Origin: Nitrospirota bacterium
GTDB lineage: Bacteria > Nitrospirota > Nitrospiria > Nitrospirales > UBA8639
Reading direction: 5' to 3'
DNA: 41,034 nucleotides
Assembly: GCA_011088105.1 (NCBI GenBank)
Contig: JAALKI010000023.1
Span: 1-41,034 of the forward strand
The translations under genes were made by a program, and so were the position numbers. Position 1 is the stretch's first letter. Every line of letters begins with the position of its first letter. The notes beneath the pieces were generated by a model. It saw nothing but the letters and a program-made list of their open reading frames with translations, searched no databases and was not told the DNA's origin. Positions 13,452 to 27,466 of the stretch are shown in pieces.

Positions 13452-15065
13452 TTAAAATTTCATGGCTTCGGACAAAATTTCCAGATCATCAATGTCCAGC
13501 CAATGCCCATTTGAGTATACAACACGAATCTCATGCCCTTGCTGCAGCAACCATTCAAAGAGATCGTTCATACGGAGTGCAGCAAAATCCTTTCGACTGC
13601 GAAGCACCTCCAACCCTGCGTGGACATGTTTGCCTCCCTCGGCGCTGAGTTTGACGAGTCCAATCCATTCACCATCGGCCCGATCAGGGAGTAGGGACGG
13701 ACTCATTTCCAGCAGTTGGACAGGTTCTTCAAAATAATCGGCATCATAGCGACGGGAACAGCGCACAAAATCCGTAAATCGATGGGCAACATGTATTCGG
13801 GATAGATTGGAATCCACATTGACGACAATATCACCAGGTTCATTCAATAACCGAAGGAGAATATAATTTTTGAAGAGAATATCACCGTACGAAATGACCA
13901 CATCACGATCAACATAGTCCAATGCCATTGACAATGAATACAATTCCTTGGTTTGGGCATACTCGGCATTCACCACAACCGTCACATCCGGCAGCGTAAT
14001 CGCCTCGGCTTTATACCCACCAACAACAATAATGTCATGAATATCAACAGCATGAAAATGATCGGCCAATCGTTGCAACAAGGGTTTGCCCTGTACATGC
14101 AACATGGCCTTTGGCTTCTCATCAGTCAGTGACCCTAAATCTGCACCTTTGGACGCTGCCAGCACGATAGCTCGCCCGCATTCTGCAGGACGACTGGGCA
14201 GATACTCGGCTTCAGCCTGTTTTAACGTTGCCGCATCTTGTAACCGAAAGATTTCTCGAACCGGTACGATGGTATCTTCGACCGTCATTAGCGAACGTTC
14301 ATGACAAATGGTATTGGCAACGCGCTGCATCGCGGCAATGCTCGCGCGGACTAAATGATTGGCCCAAATGACCATGCTGACGTTCGCCTCTTCAAAGACA
14401 CTCGTCGGTGTTGCAAAGTACATCGTGGGGACAATCACCACAGGACAAGGCGCCTGCCATGCTTTCATAAACTCCAAAATTTGATCAGGATTCGACCATT
14501 TACTATGGACCAAAATAGCATCAGCTCCGGCTTGCGAATAGGAATAGGCTCGTTTCAAAGCCTCATTGAGCCCCCGACCGGCAATAAAGGCTTCGATACG
14601 AGCCACCACGCAAAAATCCGCATCATGTTGGGTATCTTTTGCTGCTTTGATCTTGCCACAAAACTCATCCATATCAGCCAACGGCTGTTGCTCACCAATA
14701 AATGAATTGGTTTTCGGGAATAATTTATCCTCAAGACAGACGGCTGCCACCTGGCGCTGTTCAAGTTTTCGAACAAGCCGACAGACATTGTTGAAATTGC
14801 CATATCCAGTATCAGCGTCCAACAGGAGAGGAATGGTAGTTGCGTCACTCATGAACTCGACAACTTCCAACACTTGTGTCCAGCTGGCTTCATTGTTGTC
14901 TCGTACCCCTAAGGCCGCTGAAATGCCCAAGCCACTTCCCCAAATCCCCTTATGGCCAGACTCCTCCACGATCTTGGCACTGAGACCATCATGCGCTTCC
15001 AACAAAAACTCTAGTTGATTGGACTGCAACAATTGTTTGAATTGGGTCGTCTTTTTCAGCATCAT
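13452..15065 (-). CDS. aepX: Phosphoenolpyruvate mutase fused to a cytidylyltransferase-like domain
   Basis: PEP mutase makes the carbon-phosphorus bond of phosphonates by converting PEP to phosphonopyruvate. Residues 1-290 form the mutase: metal site [10 protein letters not shown] (81-90), signature loop [10 protein letters not shown] (112-121), and [10 protein letters not shown] (232-241). Residues about 298-537 form a nucleotidyltransferase domain ([24 protein letters not shown] is split here into [11 protein letters not shown] and [10 protein letters not shown]). Its LicC/PntC-like features are [11 protein letters not shown] and [10 protein letters not shown]. The usual GxGxR of the nucleotide loop is replaced by SKGADLG. 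Fusions of this kind are known to activate phosphonate headgroups with CTP. The ATG overlaps the stop of the upstream gene (ATGA), so translation is probably coupled. No phosphonopyruvate decarboxylase or aminotransferase is in view. Confidence 0.88.
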
Positions 15066-15805
15066 GCCGTGTTATCCATAGCCATCGCCAATTGCGGAAG
15101 GATTATTGCTTCAGCCCGCATGACATCTTCGGGAAAATCAATTTCAATCCAAGGATATCCGCCGATCATTTCATATCCAACAACGACCTGAGCAAAAAAA
15201 TCAACCAGTGCATCCTCATATTCCATATGCACTGCGCCCCGTTCGATACAGGCCCCAATCACAGCTTTCAGACATGGAAGGTGAGAAACATGGACCTTGA
15301 AAAACCCTAGGCCTTCACCGATTTGATCATAGGGCATGGTCACCTGCTTCGTCAGCGCCACCACCCGACCTTCTCGTGCAACGACCATGCATTCTTCACC
15401 CTGTTGCACAACCGTTTCATCCATGGCCAACGCCGTTGAATGAGAAGAATCTAGTAAGCGACGAAGAATCATGGGGTGAAAGAGCACATCAGCGTCCATA
15501 ATCACCGTATCAGAGTCCATGCATTGACTAGCAATCCATAGCGATTTCACATTCCCTTGTTCATAATCTTCATTGACCAGATAGTCAAGATTGAGACCAT
15601 AGGCGTTTGGGCCATAGACCGACCGAAGCAAATCCTGTTGATAGCCAACCACCAGTGTTGCGTCCCGAATGCCATATTCTGCTAACTGTTGGAGATACCG
15701 ATCAAGCAAGGAACGCCCACCGATTTCAATGAGACACTTTGGACGCCCCTGAGAAAATTTTAAAAGCCGCTTCCCAACACCGGCAGCAAGAATCATCGCC
15801 TTCAC
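15062..15805 (-). CDS. LicC/PntC-like nucleotidyltransferase
   Basis: A single-domain NTP transferase of about 247 residues. The nucleotide loop is [11 protein letters not shown], followed by [30 protein letters not shown] corresponds to the LicC choline-phosphate cytidylyltransferase motif, DADVLF is a metal site, and [11 protein letters not shown] is the C-terminal signature. I chose the GTG at 15805, three codons before the ATG at 15796. Longer frames would run far into mscS, which ends at 15825. It overlaps the PEP mutase fusion by four bases. Together they suggest CTP activation of a phosphonate or phosphoalcohol headgroup; the exact substrate (2-aminoethylphosphonate, choline phosphate or other) cannot be read from the sequence. 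Confidence 0.8.
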
Positions 15806-15824: not shown

Positions 15825-17018
15825 TCATTGACGTTTCTTCTCCACAACCGGTTCTTGTCCACCTGAAACTTGTTGTTCAGCAGGAATCTGAAATGGCTCT
15901 GGTTTGCCAAACGGCAACGTTTCAACATAAATCGATCTGGAGGGGAATGCAAAGCTGGCCGCATGTTCCTCGACAATCTCTTTAATCTTGTAGGCTAATG
16001 TTTCCTTCACCGCCAGCCATTCACCCCAACGCGTCGTCTTGGTAAAACAATACAGCATGACATCGATGCTGGAAGGACCAAAGGAATCAACAAAAATGAA
16101 GGTAGGGACCTTGGCACGATCGGTTTCAAAATCCGCATTGCCCTGAATGTAAGTCGTAATCGAGTTAACGATCGCTCGAAGTTGCTCCTGCGTCGTCCGG
16201 TATTCCAAGCCGATGGTCCAATAAATGCGACGTTGGGTCATCCGTGAATAATTGATGAGTGCATCTCCCGCTAGTCGGCTATTAGGAATAGTGACGAGGG
16301 CCTTATCAAATCGACGAACTTTTGTCGCCCGAAATCCAATATCTTCGACATTGCCCTCAATGTCTGGTGTTTTGATCCAATTACCTTTTTCAAACATCCG
16401 ATCCATAAAAATTGTTAACCCTGCAAACATATTCGCGATAAATTCCCGTGCCCCTAACGCCACAGCCATCCCCACCAATCCAAGACTCCCCAACACCGCA
16501 GCAACATTGAATCCCCATTCTTGAAGCACAGCAGCCGTCCCGAGACAAATGACAATAGCTTTCGCTAGTTTAACGAAAAAGCCTTTCATGGTTTCATGCA
16601 TACCGGCACTGCCAAAGAGACCAATCGCCCGATCAAATAACAAAGAAAGCGGATCAAGCGCTCGGACAAGCGCCCAGAACACGACGAACGCAATGAGGGA
16701 ACGGACGACGGTATAAAGCACATCACTCGCCTCTTCAGACAAAGGAAGAAGTTGACCTGCCACATAGAGCCCGAGAATAACAAACGCTCCCTCAATCGGC
16801 TTTTCAATGGTTTCTAACAGCAGGTCATCAATGATCGTTTTTGTGCGGCGGGTCATCGCTTTGAAGAAGGACAAGACAAACTTGAAAAATAGGCGTCTGG
16901 CCACGACGAACAGAAAAAAGACTCCACAGGCTATAAGCACATCGCGGATGGTAATCCCGAACATGCCCATTTGCCCTATGATGGCAATCTGCTCAACAAC
17001 ATCTGCGAATGTATTCAA
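15825..17018 (-). CDS. MscS-family mechanosensitive ion channel
   Basis: Inner-membrane channel of 397 residues that releases solutes under osmotic downshock. Four to five hydrophobic segments precede the pore helix, whose Gly/Ala-rich pattern VLGSLGLVGMAVALGAREFI near residues 190-209 is the MscS TM3 hallmark. The beta domain follows (GNWIKTPDIEGNVEDIGFRATKVR, given here only as GNVEDIGFRATKVR for the core) with PNSRLAGDALINYSR. The start is a TTG at 17018, supported by a strong GGGAGG eight bases upstream; no ATG fits. The extra N-terminal helices place it nearer the YnaI/YbdG-type channels than to minimal MscS. It ends 19 bases before the nucleotidyltransferase. Confidence 0.92.
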   Translation of the reverse strand: MNTFADVVEQIAIIGQMGMFGITIRDVLIACGVFFLFVVARRLFFKFVLSFFKAMTRRTKTIIDDLLLETIEKPIEGAFVILGLYVAGQLLPLSEEASDVLYTVVRSLIAFVVFWALVRALDPLSLLFDRAIGLFGSAGMHETMKGFFVKLAKAIVICLGTAAVLQEWGFNVAAVLGSLGLVGMAVALGAREFIANMFAGLTIFMDRMFEKGNWIKTPDIEGNVEDIGFRATKVRRFDKALVTIPNSRLAGDALINYSRMTQRRIYWTIGLEYRTTQEQLRAIVNSITTYIQGNADFETDRAKVPTFIFVDSFGPSSIDVMLYCFTKTTRWGEWLAVKETLAYKIKEIVEEHAASFAFPSRSIYVETLPFGKPEPFQIPAEQQVSGGQEPVVEKKRQ

Positions 17019-17026
17019 TACTGTTT

Positions 17027-17032
17027 CCTCCC
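17027..17032 (-). promoter_or_regulatory. Strong ribosome binding site fixing a TTG start for mscS
   Basis: On the minus strand GGGAGG stands eight bases before TTG (17018-17016). The next in-frame ATG is at codon 17, much further from the site, so the TTG is the likely true start. Confidence 0.7.
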
Positions 17033-17196
17033 TTTCACCGGCAGCAAGATTTTCCTGGACGGCGTATCATCATCGTTTATACGGATATTGTGTCGAAAAA
17101 TACATTCGGAGACAATTCTCTCTCCTGTAAAAAGGAAGAAATTTTCGTTTCCGCACCTTATTGCCTTTTTAAGGGACAGGCCTCTTGAGCACCTAA

Positions 17197-18216
17197 CTAT
17201 TGGTTTTCCAAAAATCGCTGAACCCGTTCACGAGTCGCAGGGTGAGTGGCAATAAAATGTGAGATGGGATCATCTTCATCCGTACGATCATCCAAACGCA
17301 TGAGAATATTTGCAAAATGCTTGGTGGAAATCTGGTGTGTTTTCAAAAATTGGAAAGCAAAATCATCTGCCTCAATCTCAAAAGCTCTCGAGTACTTCGC
17401 TTGTAGCAACAATACTGGCAATACGGCAGAAAGAGATGCGACCGAAGACATATCTCCGGTCACACTGGCAATCAGTAAGACAACAGCCGAATGTTGCAGA
17501 AGATGACGCAGCGTGTGGCGATTCACTACATGTCCGATTTCATGTGCCAGCACGGCAACAATTTCCTTGTCATCCTCTGCAAGGTGCAGAAATTCATCCG
17601 TCAGAATAATGATTCCAGAAGGAAGCGCCAGAGCATTCGCGCCCACGAGGTCACTGGTTCGAAACTCTAGGCTGAGTGCGTACCCTTCTCCCACCTTCTG
17701 GACCATATCCCCCAAGAGCATGCGGTAATGCTGCTGCCTTGTCTCATCCAACGCTGTGGGTGAAAACACCGTTTCATCTAACATCAGTAAACTTTGTTGG
17801 CCTAACATGGCATCCATCGACTGTGGAAACGTATGGGCAACCTGCTTCGCCATGGCAGGAATGGCATAGTGAATGAACCCCCATGGCACGGCAATAGCGA
17901 GGAGTAGGGCAAGGAGAATGTAACGGGAACGGCTTTCAAGATGGTGGCGGACTCTGTGCCATCGCCATCCCTCTTGGCCTGCCAACGCCACATCAATCTC
18001 GTCATTATGAAGCGTTTCACACTTTGTGCCATTTGGAAAATACAGATACCGTGGCGTACTCCCCAATCGAGATGTAATCCGCACATTGGAAAGAGGATAG
18101 GTCATCTCATCATACATTCCAATCAACCGGATGTGTCCAGGAGGTTCAAATGACAAGAGGATCTCCTGCCGATCTGATGTCTGACCATCATAGAAAAAAG
18201 CTGGAATGCTGATCAT
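17197..18216 (-). CDS. M48 family zinc metallopeptidase, membrane-anchored
   Basis: A 339-residue protein with an N-terminal soluble domain (1-90) containing beta-rich sequence such as EPPGHIRLIGMYDEMTYPL. A single membrane helix (about 99-118) follows, and then a Ste24/HtpX-like peptidase domain. Zinc ligands are HEIGH at 225-229 and Glu280 in FEIEADDFA (ExxAD). A second hydrophobic stretch follows the zinc helix. A C-terminal HPATRERVQRF is the usual M48 substrate-binding tail. The start overlaps the DUF898 stop by four bases (ATGA), so the two are made together; this pairing recurs in proteobacteria as I recall. The likely role is processing or quality control of envelope proteins. The substrate is unknown. 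Confidence 0.9.
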   Translation of the reverse strand: MISIPAFFYDGQTSDRQEILLSFEPPGHIRLIGMYDEMTYPLSNVRITSRLGSTPRYLYFPNGTKCETLHNDEIDVALAGQEGWRWHRVRHHLESRSRYILLALLLAIAVPWGFIHYAIPAMAKQVAHTFPQSMDAMLGQQSLLMLDETVFSPTALDETRQQHYRMLLGDMVQKVGEGYALSLEFRTSDLVGANALALPSGIIILTDEFLHLAEDDKEIVAVLAHEIGHVVNRHTLRHLLQHSAVVLLIASVTGDMSSVASLSAVLPVLLLQAKYSRAFEIEADDFAFQFLKTHQISTKHFANILMRLDDRTDEDDPISHFIATHPATRERVQRFLENQ

Positions 18217-19250
18217 AACCCTGCTTCGACATCAAAAAATCCGGCAAGCTCTTCGCCTGTGGCCGTAACGGCTTGCGACTCACTGGCAGCAAACTCATCT
18301 AAATTTCCTTCTACCCACAGCGTCAGCTTTGCTAATCGATACCGTGTCATGCGGATACTGGCCCATGGAATCAACAACCCCACCGTCAAGACAACAGCCA
18401 ATGCATTTGAGAAATAAAGCCATGCCATCTGTTCGGTAGCCAAGGTACTTTCAAGCCGGTGATTTCCTAACCACGTATGTGACCACACAAGATTCGCAAT
18501 ATGCGTTTGAATGTAGGCCATGGCCAAGAAGACCCCCATGGCTATACACATGAACCCCGTCATACTTAGTCCTAAGACCGAAACAGCCACCATCCCCATC
18601 ATGGTGAAAAGCATGGCCAAACAGGCAGCGGCGATGTAGACCCCATAAAACCGTCTCACCGGATTGTCGTTCAGCTTCAACTCAAACGGCGTCGTGCCAA
18701 AGCCGCTGTGATTCACCACAAACCGGTGTTGAAGATAGGAAAAATAGGGATAAGCTAATCCTAACAACAACACCAGAAGCAGCGGCCACAACACATAGAC
18801 CACTCCAGCCTCTCGATAGGTCGCCTGGAAGGCAAAACGGATATGGCGATGCGAAGTATTTCTTGCTCTGAACTCCAGCGCCCTCACAACAAGCCATGGG
18901 GTTGCCAGAAAGAAGAGGAACCATAGGGTGCCTTCTATGAAAGGATACACCGAAGAGATGGCACCGAATATCACAAACACCCCCAAGACCATGCCCCGAC
19001 CTTTCAGAATCATGAGGGGATTCGCCAGATACTCAAACGATGCCTGTTGCAGGCGAGTATTTCCATAAAAATATTGTTTATTGCGGACTTTCGCCCATGC
19101 CGAATAAACCCCCAAGGTAATGACCGTGAGAACGATATTCACAATCCACACCTTAAAGTACTCATCGGCTCGCCCCGTAAATTCAAATGGAAGAGCTTGA
19201 AAAGGATATACAGTTAGCTGAGATGCGCCTTGGGGCTCTTCATACGACAT
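18213..19250 (-). CDS. DUF898 (YjgN-like) polytopic membrane protein
   Basis: A protein of about 345 residues with roughly eight hydrophobic segments. The repeated soluble-membrane unit FEFTGRADEYFKVWIVN...VYSAWAKVRNKQYFYGNTRL is characteristic of DUF898/YjgN, and a second copy with FELKLNDNP...FYGVYIA follows. No enzymatic motif is visible, and the family function is unknown. Start choice: ATG at 19250 (AGAG six bases upstream) just before the domain. An ATG at 19274 and a GTG at 19349 are also in frame, the latter immediately after the preceding stop. It is coupled by a four-base overlap to the M48 peptidase, so it may be a partner or substrate-presenting subunit. Confidence 0.85.
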   Translation of the reverse strand: MSYEEPQGASQLTVYPFQALPFEFTGRADEYFKVWIVNIVLTVITLGVYSAWAKVRNKQYFYGNTRLQQASFEYLANPLMILKGRGMVLGVFVIFGAISSVYPFIEGTLWFLFFLATPWLVVRALEFRARNTSHRHIRFAFQATYREAGVVYVLWPLLLVLLLGLAYPYFSYLQHRFVVNHSGFGTTPFELKLNDNPVRRFYGVYIAAACLAMLFTMMGMVAVSVLGLSMTGFMCIAMGVFLAMAYIQTHIANLVWSHTWLGNHRLESTLATEQMAWLYFSNALAVVLTVGLLIPWASIRMTRYRLAKLTLWVEGNLDEFAASESQAVTATGEELAGFFDVEAGL

Positions 19251-19349
19251 GAACGGCTCTTTTTGAACAGACATCAGCCATCGGCATCCATACGCCCCAC
19301 CACGACAAGAACACATCAGCGGGCTTTTCTGCCATGCTTCATCCCGCAC

Positions 19350-19649: not shown

Positions 19650-21227
19650 TTACTCAACACCCTCATACACAAAACGCTTGCCGTATCCGCCTCCACCTGG
19701 CGTCTCGATCCTCAGACGATAACCAGCCTTTGCCTCGAAATTCACCTTGCCCGGCAAGACCGTTTCATTCCCATCGCGGCACAGGACATTGACACCCTTC
19801 TGCCCAGCTTCTCCACCAGCCATTCCATACGGCGCATGCGTTCGGCGATCGGAAAGAATGGTCACCATCATGTTTTGTAAAAACTCCAACTCTCGGATAA
19901 TCCCATCCCCACCACGATATTGCCCCGCGCCTCCAGACCCTTGACGCACGGCATGTTGATGGACCCGAACAGGATAGACATATTCTAAAGCTTCCACTGG
20001 TGTATTCTGGGTGTTGGTCATATGCGAATGGATCGCGCTCGCTCCATGACTTCCGTGGCTAGCGCCCATCCCACCGCCAATGGTTTCATAATAGGCAAAG
20101 AGCATCTGCCGAGAAACATCCCATCCACCGATAGCCAGATTATTCATGGTCCCTTGGCTCGCCGCCGGTACCCGATCGGGGCAGGCTTGGCTGAGCGCAC
20201 CCAGCAAGACATCCACAAGACGTTGCGCCGTTTCGACATTCCCGCCGGCTATAGCCGCTGGATGCTTGGCATTAACTACCGTCCCCTCAGGTGTGACCAA
20301 ACGAATGGGAAACAAACATCCACTATTTCCCGGGATGTCTAACCCAAGCAAACACCGAAAAACATAGGCAACAGCCGATAACGCAATGGCAGAGACCGCA
20401 TTCAAACTTCCACGGCATTGAGGTGATGTGCCGCCAAAATCAACCATCACTTCGTCATCCTGAATCGTCACGGTGACGGCAAGTGTTATGGGATCCAAGT
20501 CGATTCCATCATCATCTAAGACATCCGAAAAATGATAGGTGCCATCCGGCAAATCTTGGATCAGTCGTCTCGTCATCTGCTCGCTATAGGCCAATAATGC
20601 CTTCATCTTCGCTTCAACCGTTTTCCACCCATACCGCGCCACGAATGCATGCACCCGTTCAATTCCAATTCGATTGGCTGCCATTTGCGCATGGAGATCA
20701 CCCCGACGCTCAAGAGGTGTACGAACATTCGCCAACAATAAAGTCAAAACTGCTTCATTCAAGACACCTCCTGACATGAGTTTGAGTGGCGGAATAATAA
20801 CCCCTTCCTGGTAGAGTTCCTGCGACAACGGCATTGATCCCGGAGACATCCCACCAACATCCGCATGGTGCGCACGATTGGCAACAAACCCGAACAATTG
20901 TTGATGTCCATAAATAGGTGAAATAAGTGTAATATCAGGCAGGTGTGTTCCCCCATGGTACGGATCATTCACAATGGCGATGTCACCTTTCTCAAGCGTC
21001 ATCGCTTTGAGACATGCCTGAACCGACAGGGGCATCGCCCCAAGATGTACAGGGATATGAGCGGCTTGAGCAATGAGTTCACCGGTGGCATTGAAAACGG
21101 CACATGAAAAATCACGCCGTTCTTTAATGTTCGCAGAGTACGCCGAACGCTGTAATCGGCTTCCCATTTCCTCCGCAACGGATGCAAACAGATGTTTAAA
21201 AATTTCGAGTTCAATAGGGTCGTCCAT
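19650..21227 (-). CDS. hyuB: Hydantoinase B / 5-oxoprolinase beta-type subunit
   Basis: Second subunit of ATP-dependent N-methylhydantoinase/5-oxoprolinase-like enzymes, which open cyclic amides; acetone carboxylase subunits are relatives. The family signature runs through the protein: ERRDFSCAVFNATGELIAQ, HIPVHLGAMP, IVNDPYHGGTHLPDI, the central GNVETAQRLVDVLLGAL, and the Gly-rich C-terminal RQGSGGAGQYRGGDGIIRE and PGGGGYGKR. ATG at 21227 lies one base after the hyuA stop; a TTG at 21245 inside hyuA is the alternative. Length about 525 residues, as expected. Together with HyuA it forms a complete enzyme; the substrate cannot be told from sequence. Confidence 0.92.
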   Translation of the reverse strand: MDDPIELEIFKHLFASVAEEMGSRLQRSAYSANIKERRDFSCAVFNATGELIAQAAHIPVHLGAMPLSVQACLKAMTLEKGDIAIVNDPYHGGTHLPDITLISPIYGHQQLFGFVANRAHHADVGGMSPGSMPLSQELYQEGVIIPPLKLMSGGVLNEAVLTLLLANVRTPLERRGDLHAQMAANRIGIERVHAFVARYGWKTVEAKMKALLAYSEQMTRRLIQDLPDGTYHFSDVLDDDGIDLDPITLAVTVTIQDDEVMVDFGGTSPQCRGSLNAVSAIALSAVAYVFRCLLGLDIPGNSGCLFPIRLVTPEGTVVNAKHPAAIAGGNVETAQRLVDVLLGALSQACPDRVPAASQGTMNNLAIGGWDVSRQMLFAYYETIGGGMGASHGSHGASAIHSHMTNTQNTPVEALEYVYPVRVHQHAVRQGSGGAGQYRGGDGIIRELEFLQNMMVTILSDRRTHAPYGMAGGEAGQKGVNVLCRDGNETVLPGKVNFEAKAGYRLRIETPGGGGYGKRFVYEGVE

Positions 21228-21228
21228 G

Positions 21229-23253
21229 TCACACCCGTCGCTCAATTACCAGATTGGCATATTCGTCCACGCAGCACTGGTCTCCTGGTGTGACATACGT
21301 CGTCGTATCAGCCTGTGCAATGATCGCTGGCCCGACGATGGCATTGCCCGGAAGGAGTCGCTCTCGCTGATAATGCGGAACAGCCACCATCGTATGGTCA
21401 AGGACAACCGATGACTTTCCCAGGAATGCGCTTGAAGGATCAGCCGATGCTCTTTTTTGTGTCGGCAATAGTGGAGGTATGCCCGGACTAACAACACGAA
21501 CCCGCATATTCACAATTTCAATAGGGGCCGATTGATTGTGAAACCCATACTGCTGATCATGCATCGCATCAAACTCACCGCGAAAAGCCCTGGAAAATGG
21601 GATCGTGAGTTCATAGGATTGCCCCACATATCGTACATCTAATTCCTTGCGAATGATTCCTTGTTCACGTTCCACACCTTGATCAACTAATTCTGCCATG
21701 CCTCGTTCAATAAGAGGCGCCATCAAGACATCCAATTCTTCAAAAGGCGTCTCCCCCGAACGCATAATGGTTTGCCCATAATCGACCACCACATCGGCCA
21801 CCAACATACCATATGCCGACAAGGTCGAGGCCATGCGAGGAATCAAGATCGTGTTCATGCCCATGAGTTGTGCAAGCTCACAAGCGTGAACGCCTCCTGC
21901 CCCCCCAAATGACACAAAGACAAACTCCCGAGGGTCATATCCTCGCTCGACAGAGATAACCCGCAGAGCCCGTTCCATTTGTGCATTCACGACATCTTTT
22001 ACTCCCTTTGCCAGCACTTGTGCTTCCGTCAATTCTGTACTAGGGCCAATATGCAAAGCCTCTGCTAACGCTCTCAGCGCATGACTGGCTTGTTGGGTAT
22101 CAATAGCCATCTGTCCTCCAAGAAGTCCATGATCTGGCAACCGGCCTAAGACAAGATTGGCATCTGTGACAATCGGCACGATTCCTCCCAATCCGTAACA
22201 CACCGGCCCTGGTTGGGCGCCAGCACTCTTTGGCCCAACACGAAGACTCCCCCCTTTATCCATCAGCGCCAATGATCCACCACCAGCACCGACCGTATGG
22301 AGGTCGATCACCGGCACCCGAATGGGCAATCCGCCAATTTGAGCCTGATTCGTCACCTGCATTTGCCCATCGACCACGGACACATCTGTCGACGTCCCTC
22401 CCATATCAAAGGTGATCACTCGCTCAAATCCAGCGAGTTTCGCGACATGAACGGCGCCTACTACTCCACCGGCAGGCCCTGATAAAATCGATCGAACCCC
22501 TTGATTCCTCCCATCCGCCACACGAAGTCGCCCTCCATTCGACTGAAGAATGTGGAATTCCGATGGAGCCATTTTATCGCTCAATCGACCAAGATACCGA
22601 TTGAGAATTGGCGAGACATAGGCATTGACGACCGTAGTCACTGAACGCTCATACTCTCGAAACTCCGGCACGACTTCATGGGAAGCTGAGACAAAAAAAC
22701 CTGCGTCTCTCAAACGTTGAGCCAAGACCTTTTCATGCGCTGGAGAAGCAAAGGAAAACAAAAAACTGATCGCGACAGACTCAATACCTGAACTCTGTAA
22801 GTTCTGAAGCAGACTCGGAATTTCTTCTTCATTCAACGGCATCAGAACACAGCCATTGTGATCAACGCGTTCTGTCATATCCCAACAACAGGATGACGCG
22901 ATCAACGGTTCAGGTCGTGCATCTAACCAATCATACAAATGGGTTCGAGTCTGTCTACCAATGTTTAAAAGATCGCGGAAGCCTCGGGTTGCGACAAACG
23001 CCGTCTTTGCACCTTTTCTTTCCAGTAACGCATTCGTGGCTACGGTTGAGCCATGAATCAGTGTTCGTGGAAGATGAGAGGAGAAGCTCGCAAGCCCTTC
23101 GAGCACAGCATCAGCCGGATCGGGATGAGAAGAAAGATACTTAAACGTCTGAAGATGGTTGGTCGTCGCATCATACACAACAAAGTCCGTAAAGGTGCCA
23201 CCGACGTCAATCCCAATATAGAGCCTCGCACGTTGCAATGAAGTCTGTGTCAC
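21229..23253 (-). CDS. hyuA: Hydantoinase A / 5-oxoprolinase alpha-type ATPase subunit
   Basis: ATP-using subunit of the hydantoinase/5-oxoprolinase family, 674 residues. The phosphate-1 loop is GIDVGGTFTDFVV (14-26). It is followed by STVATNALLERKGAKTAFV, the central ILSGPAGGVVGA and DMGGTSTDVSVVDG (phosphate-2), and the HTVGAGGGS region. The GTG at 23253 is the chosen start, with no convincing Shine-Dalgarno; the protein begins just before the ATPase loop as in relatives. It starts 51 bases after the FG-GAP protein and runs directly into hyuB. Possible physiological jobs are recycling of 5-oxoproline or use of cyclic ureides as nitrogen source; there is no transporter nearby to narrow this. 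Confidence 0.93.
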   Translation of the reverse strand: MTQTSLQRARLYIGIDVGGTFTDFVVYDATTNHLQTFKYLSSHPDPADAVLEGLASFSSHLPRTLIHGSTVATNALLERKGAKTAFVATRGFRDLLNIGRQTRTHLYDWLDARPEPLIASSCCWDMTERVDHNGCVLMPLNEEEIPSLLQNLQSSGIESVAISFLFSFASPAHEKVLAQRLRDAGFFVSASHEVVPEFREYERSVTTVVNAYVSPILNRYLGRLSDKMAPSEFHILQSNGGRLRVADGRNQGVRSILSGPAGGVVGAVHVAKLAGFERVITFDMGGTSTDVSVVDGQMQVTNQAQIGGLPIRVPVIDLHTVGAGGGSLALMDKGGSLRVGPKSAGAQPGPVCYGLGGIVPIVTDANLVLGRLPDHGLLGGQMAIDTQQASHALRALAEALHIGPSTELTEAQVLAKGVKDVVNAQMERALRVISVERGYDPREFVFVSFGGAGGVHACELAQLMGMNTILIPRMASTLSAYGMLVADVVVDYGQTIMRSGETPFEELDVLMAPLIERGMAELVDQGVEREQGIIRKELDVRYVGQSYELTIPFSRAFRGEFDAMHDQQYGFHNQSAPIEIVNMRVRVVSPGIPPLLPTQKRASADPSSAFLGKSSVVLDHTMVAVPHYQRERLLPGNAIVGPAIIAQADTTTYVTPGDQCCVDEYANLVIERRV

Positions 23254-27017: not shown

Positions 27018-27094
27018 CCTGTCCTCCCAGTGCCGTTCATGTCTGATCTCTCGTCTCGACCAATTCTGCATGATCATTGATAACAGGTGTTTTT

Positions 27095-27123
27095 ACTCTA
27101 CCAGAATTTCCGCATTTCGCCAA
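27095..27123 (-). promoter_or_regulatory. Possible promoter of mlaA
   Basis: Minus strand: TTGGCG (27123-27118), 17-base spacer, TAGAGT (27100-27095). The predicted leader is about 71 bases. Partial consensus on both boxes. Confidence 0.4.
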
Positions 27124-27153
27124 GGATTCGACTCATATGCCATCACCCTCTGA

Positions 27154-27182
27154 TTGACCCGCTAAAAAAGCTGGTGTAAGGT
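27154..27182 (+). promoter_or_regulatory. Possible promoter of the 82-aa gene
   Basis: TTGACC (27154-27159), 17-base spacer, TAAGGT (27177-27182). The -35 is good and the -10 poor. It sits at the right distance from the start at 27218. Confidence 0.3.
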
Positions 27183-27217
27183 ATGCGCGACTGGATTGAA
27201 AAAAGGAGGAATGAGTG

Positions 27218-27466
27218 ATGAATGAACATATTATGCAGGCCTATCAGGCCGTTGAACAGGCAATGCAAAATTACAATACGGTCCTTGCTGAACATGTCAC
27301 CGCTCTGCGGGCAGAAGAGGCCGGGGATGTCTCAAAGGTCGAACGCATGATTGCCGGAACAAAAGCGATGCAAGATAGCAGCGGCATTTACCTTTCTTAT
27401 GCCAAGTTTGTGGCTTATGGAATGCCAGAAAGCGAAGATTTGATTGAAGAAGAACTCCAAGGCTAG
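27218..27466 (+). CDS. Small helical protein of unknown function (82 aa)
   Basis: I do not recognise a family. The sequence is mostly alpha-helical and soluble (AYQAVEQAMQNYNTVLAEHV, EEAGDVSKVERMIAGTKAM) and ends acidic (SEDLIEEELQG). AAAGGAGGA stands eight bases before the ATG at 27218; a GTG one codon upstream is also possible. With a perfect Shine-Dalgarno and a promoter-like sequence upstream it is very probably expressed. It stands alone between mlaA (divergent) and the tRNA (convergent). Confidence 0.7.
   Translation: MNEHIMQAYQAVEQAMQNYNTVLAEHVTALRAEEAGDVSKVERMIAGTKAMQDSSGIYLSYAKFVAYGMPESEDLIEEELQG

Follow-up and report, generated by a model that had tools for sequence, protein, structure and literature searches.

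The window analyzed here, a 41,034-nucleotide stretch of a Nitrospirales genome (contig JAALKI010000023.1, C32 in our numbering), contains two overlapping genes that probably encode the first and the activation steps of a 2-aminoethylphosphonate (AEP) phosphonolipid pathway, with the middle and late steps encoded at a second, unlinked locus. The host genome comprises 2.6 Mb in 70 contigs and is 97.6% complete. One gene codes for a free nucleotidyltransferase (NT) and the other for a fusion of PEP mutase with an NT domain; both lie on the minus strand, which places the free NT ahead of the fusion in reading order (Table 1). The initial annotation had reported that the fusion overlaps a second LicC-like NT by an ATGA junction, and the open reading frames confirmed this. 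The same gene order was found in one relative, G026 (L039), and in many Burkholderiaceae. Among named genomes, the fusion is closest to those of Nitrospirales (81% and 80%); these genomes also rank among the kin of the host, which places it in that order. Directly upstream of the pair, on the same strand (15825-19349), are genes for an MscS-type channel, an M48 peptidase with DUF7092 and a DUF898 membrane protein, which possibly form one operon with it; none of the relatives read has this neighborhood around its fusion. Another minus-strand gene pair (19650-23253) resembles caprolactamase/acetophenone carboxylase subunits (hydantoinase A/B type), at scores well below the cut-offs of the named families.

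Table 1. Positions of the features discussed; plain coordinates refer to the window, prefixed ones to other loci
Feature	Position	Strand	Remarks
Fusion of PEP mutase and NTP_transf_3-type NT domain, 537 aa	13452..15065	(-)	TIGR02320, PF13714, PF12804
PEP mutase domain, residues 1-290	14196..15065	(-)	1pym, Z 39.9, 288 residues, rmsd 2.0, 67% identity
Mutase signature [10 protein letters not shown], residues 112-121	14703..14732	(-)	fits EDKXXXXXNS
Fused NT domain, residues 295-537	13455..14183	(-)	T. denticola PntC 6pd2, Z 29.3, 225 residues, rmsd 2.0; LicC 1jyk, Z 27.2
Loop AASKGADLG of fused domain, residues 303-311	14133..14159	(-)	atypical but conserved; counts over 81 fused domains
Free LicC/PntC-like cytidylyltransferase gene, GTG start, 247 aa	15062..15805	(-)	T. 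denticola PntC 6pd2 match
Nucleotide loop LAAGVGKRL of free NT, residues 6-14	15764..15790	(-)	canonical; Gly9, Arg13, Lys23 in 43/43 free relatives
ATGA overlap of free NT and fusion, 4 bases	15062..15065	(-)	
Second locus	L038:9644-14492		ppdA, ppdB, AEP transaminase-like, CDP-alcohol phosphotransferase, LPG-synthase/HpnL-like membrane protein
Divergent fusions read	L057, L058, L064, L069, L071, L079		genomes G004, G003, G051, G009, G001, G041

Judged by its sequence, the first domain of the fusion is a true PEP mutase with a predicted PEP to phosphonopyruvate activity. The phosphoenolpyruvate mutase model TIGR02320 matched residues 9-278 with 382.2 bits (cut-off 319.55), and PF13714 matched the mutase part with 209 bits. 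The signature follows a motif that separates PEP mutase from its relatives (Rice et al. 2019, PMC6697681), and the active-site residues, in mussel numbering, are all kept (W44, S46, D58, D85, D87, E114, K120, N122, S123, R159 and H190). These observations bear out the initial description of a full PEP mutase. In structure-based alignments the domain is 66-67% identical to the mussel enzyme. An AlphaFold model of the fusion (mean pLDDT 88.9, with a weak linker at 288-293) matched mussel PEP mutase over residues 3-290 and PntC/LicC over residues 295-537; the NT-domain matches came from VIA-align, the Foldseek table being taken up by the mutase domain. An isocitrate-lyase-type identity of the first domain, which the initial annotation had also raised, was checked and ruled out: the domain groups with characterized PEP mutases, apart from PrpB-like proteins.

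The free NT had as its best PDB match the T. denticola PntC of PntC-AEPT (PDB 6PD1/6PD2), where AEPT is the AEP transaminase; its model (pLDDT 94.8) matched 6pd2 with Z 31.4 (242 residues, rmsd 2.1) versus 27.0 for LicC. Replacement of Arg15, Lys25 or Lys153 of T. denticola PntC by Ala leaves <10% activity, while two acidic residues, Glu104 and Glu196, point toward the AEP amine (PMC6697681). The window free NT keeps the equivalents of Arg15, Lys25, Lys153 and Glu196; by profile alignment it has Arg13, Lys23, Asp106, Lys153, Glu197, Glu221 and Asp223. Among 43 free NTs, Arg13, Lys23, Asp106, Glu221 and Asp223 are invariant, with Lys153 present in 40 and Glu197 in 41. The loop was initially called canonical and proved to be so, as the pattern Gly-x-Gly-x-Arg...Pro-Lys is present, although the residue before Arg is Lys versus Thr/Ser in the published consensus. 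At the amine-facing positions, Glu197 is present and position 104 is Asp, as in LicC, whereas the T. denticola enzyme has Glu104. The window protein also differs from T. denticola PntC in that it is not fused to a transaminase and lies outside the PntC clade of that organism in the NT tree. The CTP:phosphocholine cytidylyltransferase LicC (1JYK/1JYL) has a similar fold and canonical loop (Z 27); however, the genome context of the free NT is AEP synthesis rather than choline uptake and phosphorylation.

The second NT domain, fused to the mutase, is of a different kind. PF12804 (NTP_transf_3) matched residues 299-419 with 49 bits, and the NT tree groups all fused domains in a single clade (100/98), separate from the free NTs. 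Its loop had been regarded as degenerate in the initial annotation, but it is instead a subfamily signature: over 81 fused domains from about ten phyla, Ser305 occurs in 73, Arg or Lys306 in 77 and Gly307 in all. Recent or lineage-specific decay of the loop is thus ruled out, AAS[RK]G being conserved across most of the 81 domains. The catalytic Lys319, the metal-binding Asp395 and Trp522 are each present in 81/81, and the second metal position, 526, is always Asp or Asn. Because the catalytic Lys and both metal-ligand positions are kept, plain decay of the domain is disfavored. Most of the PntC residues listed above are absent, however; of Arg15, Lys25, Lys153 and Glu196 only the Lys25 equivalent is kept. 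The Arg15 equivalent, position 309, is Arg in none of the 81 sequences (Asp309 in the window protein), and the positions of Lys153 and the acidic amine contacts are occupied by Glu453, Tyr393 and Asn500, with 453 and 500 variable and 393 Tyr or Phe. Since the Arg15 equivalent and the acidic amine contacts are lacking, the fused domain is likely to have a substrate or role other than AEP activation. The choice initially offered, between different headgroups for the two NTs and a regulatory fused domain, is narrowed by these residues but not settled. At the key positions, fused domains that have a free NT nearby showed no tell-tale difference from those that do not.

A replacement of the free NT by the fused one where no free NT is nearby was also considered. 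Nine Paraburkholderia/Burkholderia genomes lack a free NT next to the fusion, but all nine have one elsewhere, which rules out such a replacement in them. Paraburkholderia xenovorans LB400 carries the fusion in L095 and a free NT at G059:C2:2678126-2678875. Together with two further genomes having a local free NT, 11/11 Burkholderiaceae carry a free NT (67-100% identical to that of the Burkholderia cluster). Conserved residues and co-occurrence therefore suggest that both NTs are needed and that the free NT is the better candidate for CMP-AEP synthesis. The best reading of these sequence comparisons is that the free NT would make CMP-AEP and the fused domain would do something else. We give roughly even weight to the more specific view that the fused domain represents a distinct NT class with its own AAS[RK]G loop, not PntC, and that phosphonolipid synthesis would require, alongside a separate canonical AEP cytidylyltransferase, an undescribed step supplied by this domain, whether through action on a second phosphonate or an intermediate or through mutase control.

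One tentative alternative is that the fused domain handles a second, non-amino phosphonate, for example 2-hydroxyethylphosphonate, which would give two activated phosphonates per cell. In several Nitrospira-type relatives with the AEP genes at another locus, the fusion is followed by a single-chain phosphonopyruvate decarboxylase (Ppd) and an aldo/keto reductase (L046:9698-11770 and L047:9783-11803; the reductase also at L053:9588-10445). A decarboxylase and a reductase in this position would yield hydroxyethylphosphonate, and thus these loci possibly encode such a branch. On the other hand, the window fusion has neither a reductase nor a second Ppd as its neighbor, and the Burkholderiaceae fusion cluster shows only the AEP route. 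A more doubtful proposal is that the fused domain is itself the cytidylyltransferase for AEP or another phosphonate, the free NT activating another compound, such as a sugar phosphate or polyol phosphate destined for the acceptor. The invariant Lys and metal positions and the strongly PntC-like model (Z 29.3) are consistent with it, as is Fom1 of fosfomycin biosynthesis, likewise a fusion of PEP mutase and cytidylyltransferase, which activates a later intermediate, hydroxyethylphosphonate (PMC6697681). Yet the Fom1 cytidylyltransferase is of an unrelated type, N-terminal and PF01467, whereas that of the window is C-terminal and PF12804; moreover, the Arg whose change to Ala cripples PntC is replaced in every fused domain, and the Lys153 and acidic amine-contact positions are unconserved while the free NT keeps nearly all of them. 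We also doubt a pseudo-enzyme or regulatory role, in which the fused domain would bind a nucleotide and tune the mutase. Loss of the pyrophosphate-loop Arg and the amine contacts would fit this idea, and outside close Nitrospirales the NT domain diverges faster (about 34-46% identity) than the mutase domain (61-71%), but Lys319, Asp395, Trp522 and a D/N second metal ligand are retained throughout the 81 sequences of about ten phyla.

The preferred reading, with AEP activated by the free NT, needs the remaining enzymes of the pathway. The initial annotation stated that Ppd and AEP transaminase were absent, which holds for the window, but both are present on contig C12 of the same genome. The genome search that it had suggested for Ppd, transaminase and CDP-alcohol transferase located all three at this second locus, with Ppd split and both Ppd and AEPT below model cut-offs, and so an incomplete pathway in the organism is ruled out. 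In the whole-genome search the two Ppd-like halves appeared as separate genes, each chain covering one half of the single-chain model TIGR03297 (cut-off 312.5). The alpha subunit scored 133 bits with phosphonopyruvate versus 115.6 with sulfopyruvate decarboxylase, and the beta subunit 187.5 bits with sulfopyruvate versus 171.1 with phosphonopyruvate decarboxylase, all below the cut-offs of both models. The host genome yielded no single-chain Ppd above threshold. The class V transaminase matched TIGR03301 over its full length, best of all models, with 340.5 bits, just under the cut-off of 360.8. The CDP-alcohol phosphotransferase (486 aa) has a PF01066 domain behind an N-terminal region which by eye is NT-like. 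In this it resembles the bifunctional inositol-phosphate cytidylyltransferase/DIPP synthase, although it scores 80 bits against a cut-off of 580 for that family and its N-terminal part is without a typical NT loop. Contig C44 encodes another NT (27% identity to the free NT) near an additional CDP-alcohol transferase (20720-21430 and 27080-27349); by sequence these are candidates for a separate lipid-headgroup system.

The relationship between the two loci was examined in 59 genomes of the family and order, host included. The transaminase was found at 51% identity or higher in 49 of them, and in 45 of these 49 the free NT directly follows AEPT, with the CDP-alcohol transferase next in most, as read from coordinates. 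In the host, about 57 bp separate the end of AEPT (C12:53992) from the start of the transferase (54049), and no gene lies between them. The window free NT nests within the clade of Nitrospirales second-locus NTs (support 100/99), sister to that of G026 (100/100), which has the same moved arrangement and a transposase gene just upstream. Because the slot in the host is empty and the window NT nests among second-locus NTs, the free NT has moved. The fusion is absent in five relatives, all of which are also without a free NT; this co-absence has a chance of about 2.5e-5, computed by hand on the assumption of independent genomes, which these are not. Four relatives have the fusion but no free NT, and three of these are only 64-88% complete. 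In G055 (L063:6903-9262) and G036 (L182:1176-3350) ppdA-ppdB-AEPT are kept, but neither a PEP mutase nor a free NT was found in these two genomes, and therefore these genes may have another use there. Two other arrangements should be noted. In G054 (L056:3459-6725) the free NT, a gene similar to halogenase-D/2OG-Fe(II)-oxygenases and a Streptomyces-like PEP mutase-NT fusion form one overlapping run, possibly for a hydroxylated or halogenated phosphonate, and in G041 (L078:7572-8546) a protein similar to the C-terminal part of squalene-hopene cyclase is encoded between the free NT and the CDP-alcohol transferase.

In a wider survey, the fusion was confirmed in at least 590 loci. Within 10 kb of the best 80 of these, from about ten phyla, Ppd occurred 64 times, AEPT 48, free NT 43, CDP-alcohol transferase 26 and a flippase-like protein 24, whereas unrelated window genes, used as a control, occurred at most once each. 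Burkholderia, Caballeronia, Cupriavidus and Pandoraea have the CDP-alcohol transferase, flippase, free NT, fusion, Ppd and AEPT in one run, in this order. This one-cluster linkage in other phyla indicates that the window pair is a known linkage and that the host pathway is a cluster broken into two. A sulfonate pathway (sulfopyruvate to a taurine-type product) at the second locus, unconnected with the mutase locus, is improbable: the beta subunit score and the genes retained in G055 and G036 would suit it, but the joint absence of fusion and free NT, the movement of the free NT between the loci, the single clusters that include the mutase and the best fit of the transaminase to AEP transaminase models all argue against it.

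Gene content, gene order, relatedness, residue conservation and predicted folds were established directly; the reactions, the lipid product and how labor is divided between the NTs are all inferred from families and context. In the pathway proposed here, phosphonopyruvate from the mutase domain would be converted to phosphonoacetaldehyde by the two-subunit thiamine-diphosphate decarboxylase of C12 and then to AEP by the class V transaminase. AEP would be activated to CMP-AEP by the window free NT, which would have started out at the second locus, where nearly all relatives have it, and later relocated next to the mutase. A lipid acceptor would then receive AEP through the CDP-alcohol phosphotransferase, and movement of the lipid may be aided by the LPG-synthase/HpnL-like protein. 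The fused domain would belong to an old, separate and conserved NT subfamily, most likely with a non-AEP substrate, or would aid the mutase without CMP-AEP synthesis. Because the linked pathway includes a CDP-alcohol phosphotransferase and a flippase-like protein, a phosphonate-decorated lipid, one of the products suggested initially, appears to be the best-supported one. Replacement of phosphatidylethanolamine by an AEP lipid is unsupported: the host has a phosphatidylserine decarboxylase gene, beside a CDP-alcohol transferase, and the AEP lipid would therefore add to phosphatidylethanolamine.

A divergent mutase-like fusion, about 35-43% identical over the matched part, is the sole one in 13 relatives, and it was never found together with the EDK form in one genome among the relatives compared. 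In the six sequences read (Table 1), EDNxFPKRCS replaces EDKxxxxxNS, with Cys at the position of Asn122 as in lyases, while Trp44, Asp58, Asp85, Asp87, Glu114, Lys120, Arg159 and His190 are kept. Those scored had about 270-280 bits, under the PEP mutase cut-off. Most genomes with the divergent fusion have the second locus, which the fusion adjoins in G051; in G003 and G004 it is beside a gene for a pyridoxal-dependent decarboxylase. Either motif-based surveys have overlooked a mutase in this divergent form, or a different acid is used in these genomes.

Fusions of PEP mutase and PF12804 with the same two domain families and the mutase signature were described previously (Rice et al. 2019, PMC6697681), including three oral anaerobes in which a free NT lies near the fused one. 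Thus, the fused-plus-free arrangement was already published in 2019, and the role of the fused domain is the testable point; in contrast to the systems of that study, the pathway here is split over two loci, and it occurs in Nitrospirales. As 33% of the surveyed PEP mutases are fused to PF12804 (PMC6697681), the fused domain belongs to a family carried by about a third of known PEP mutases, and the present comparison suggests that it is not simply a second PntC. In the literature we found no report testing the role of the NT domain fused to PEP mutases, and searches for Nitrospira with phosphonate or PEP mutase returned no title or abstract about phosphonate synthesis there. The AEP pathway gene set is nearly universal in the sampled Nitrospirales, an order of many nitrite oxidizers. 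If our proposal is true, Nitrospirales would be phosphonolipid producers, which would bear on phosphorus cycling and on lipid work with these hard-to-grow bacteria.
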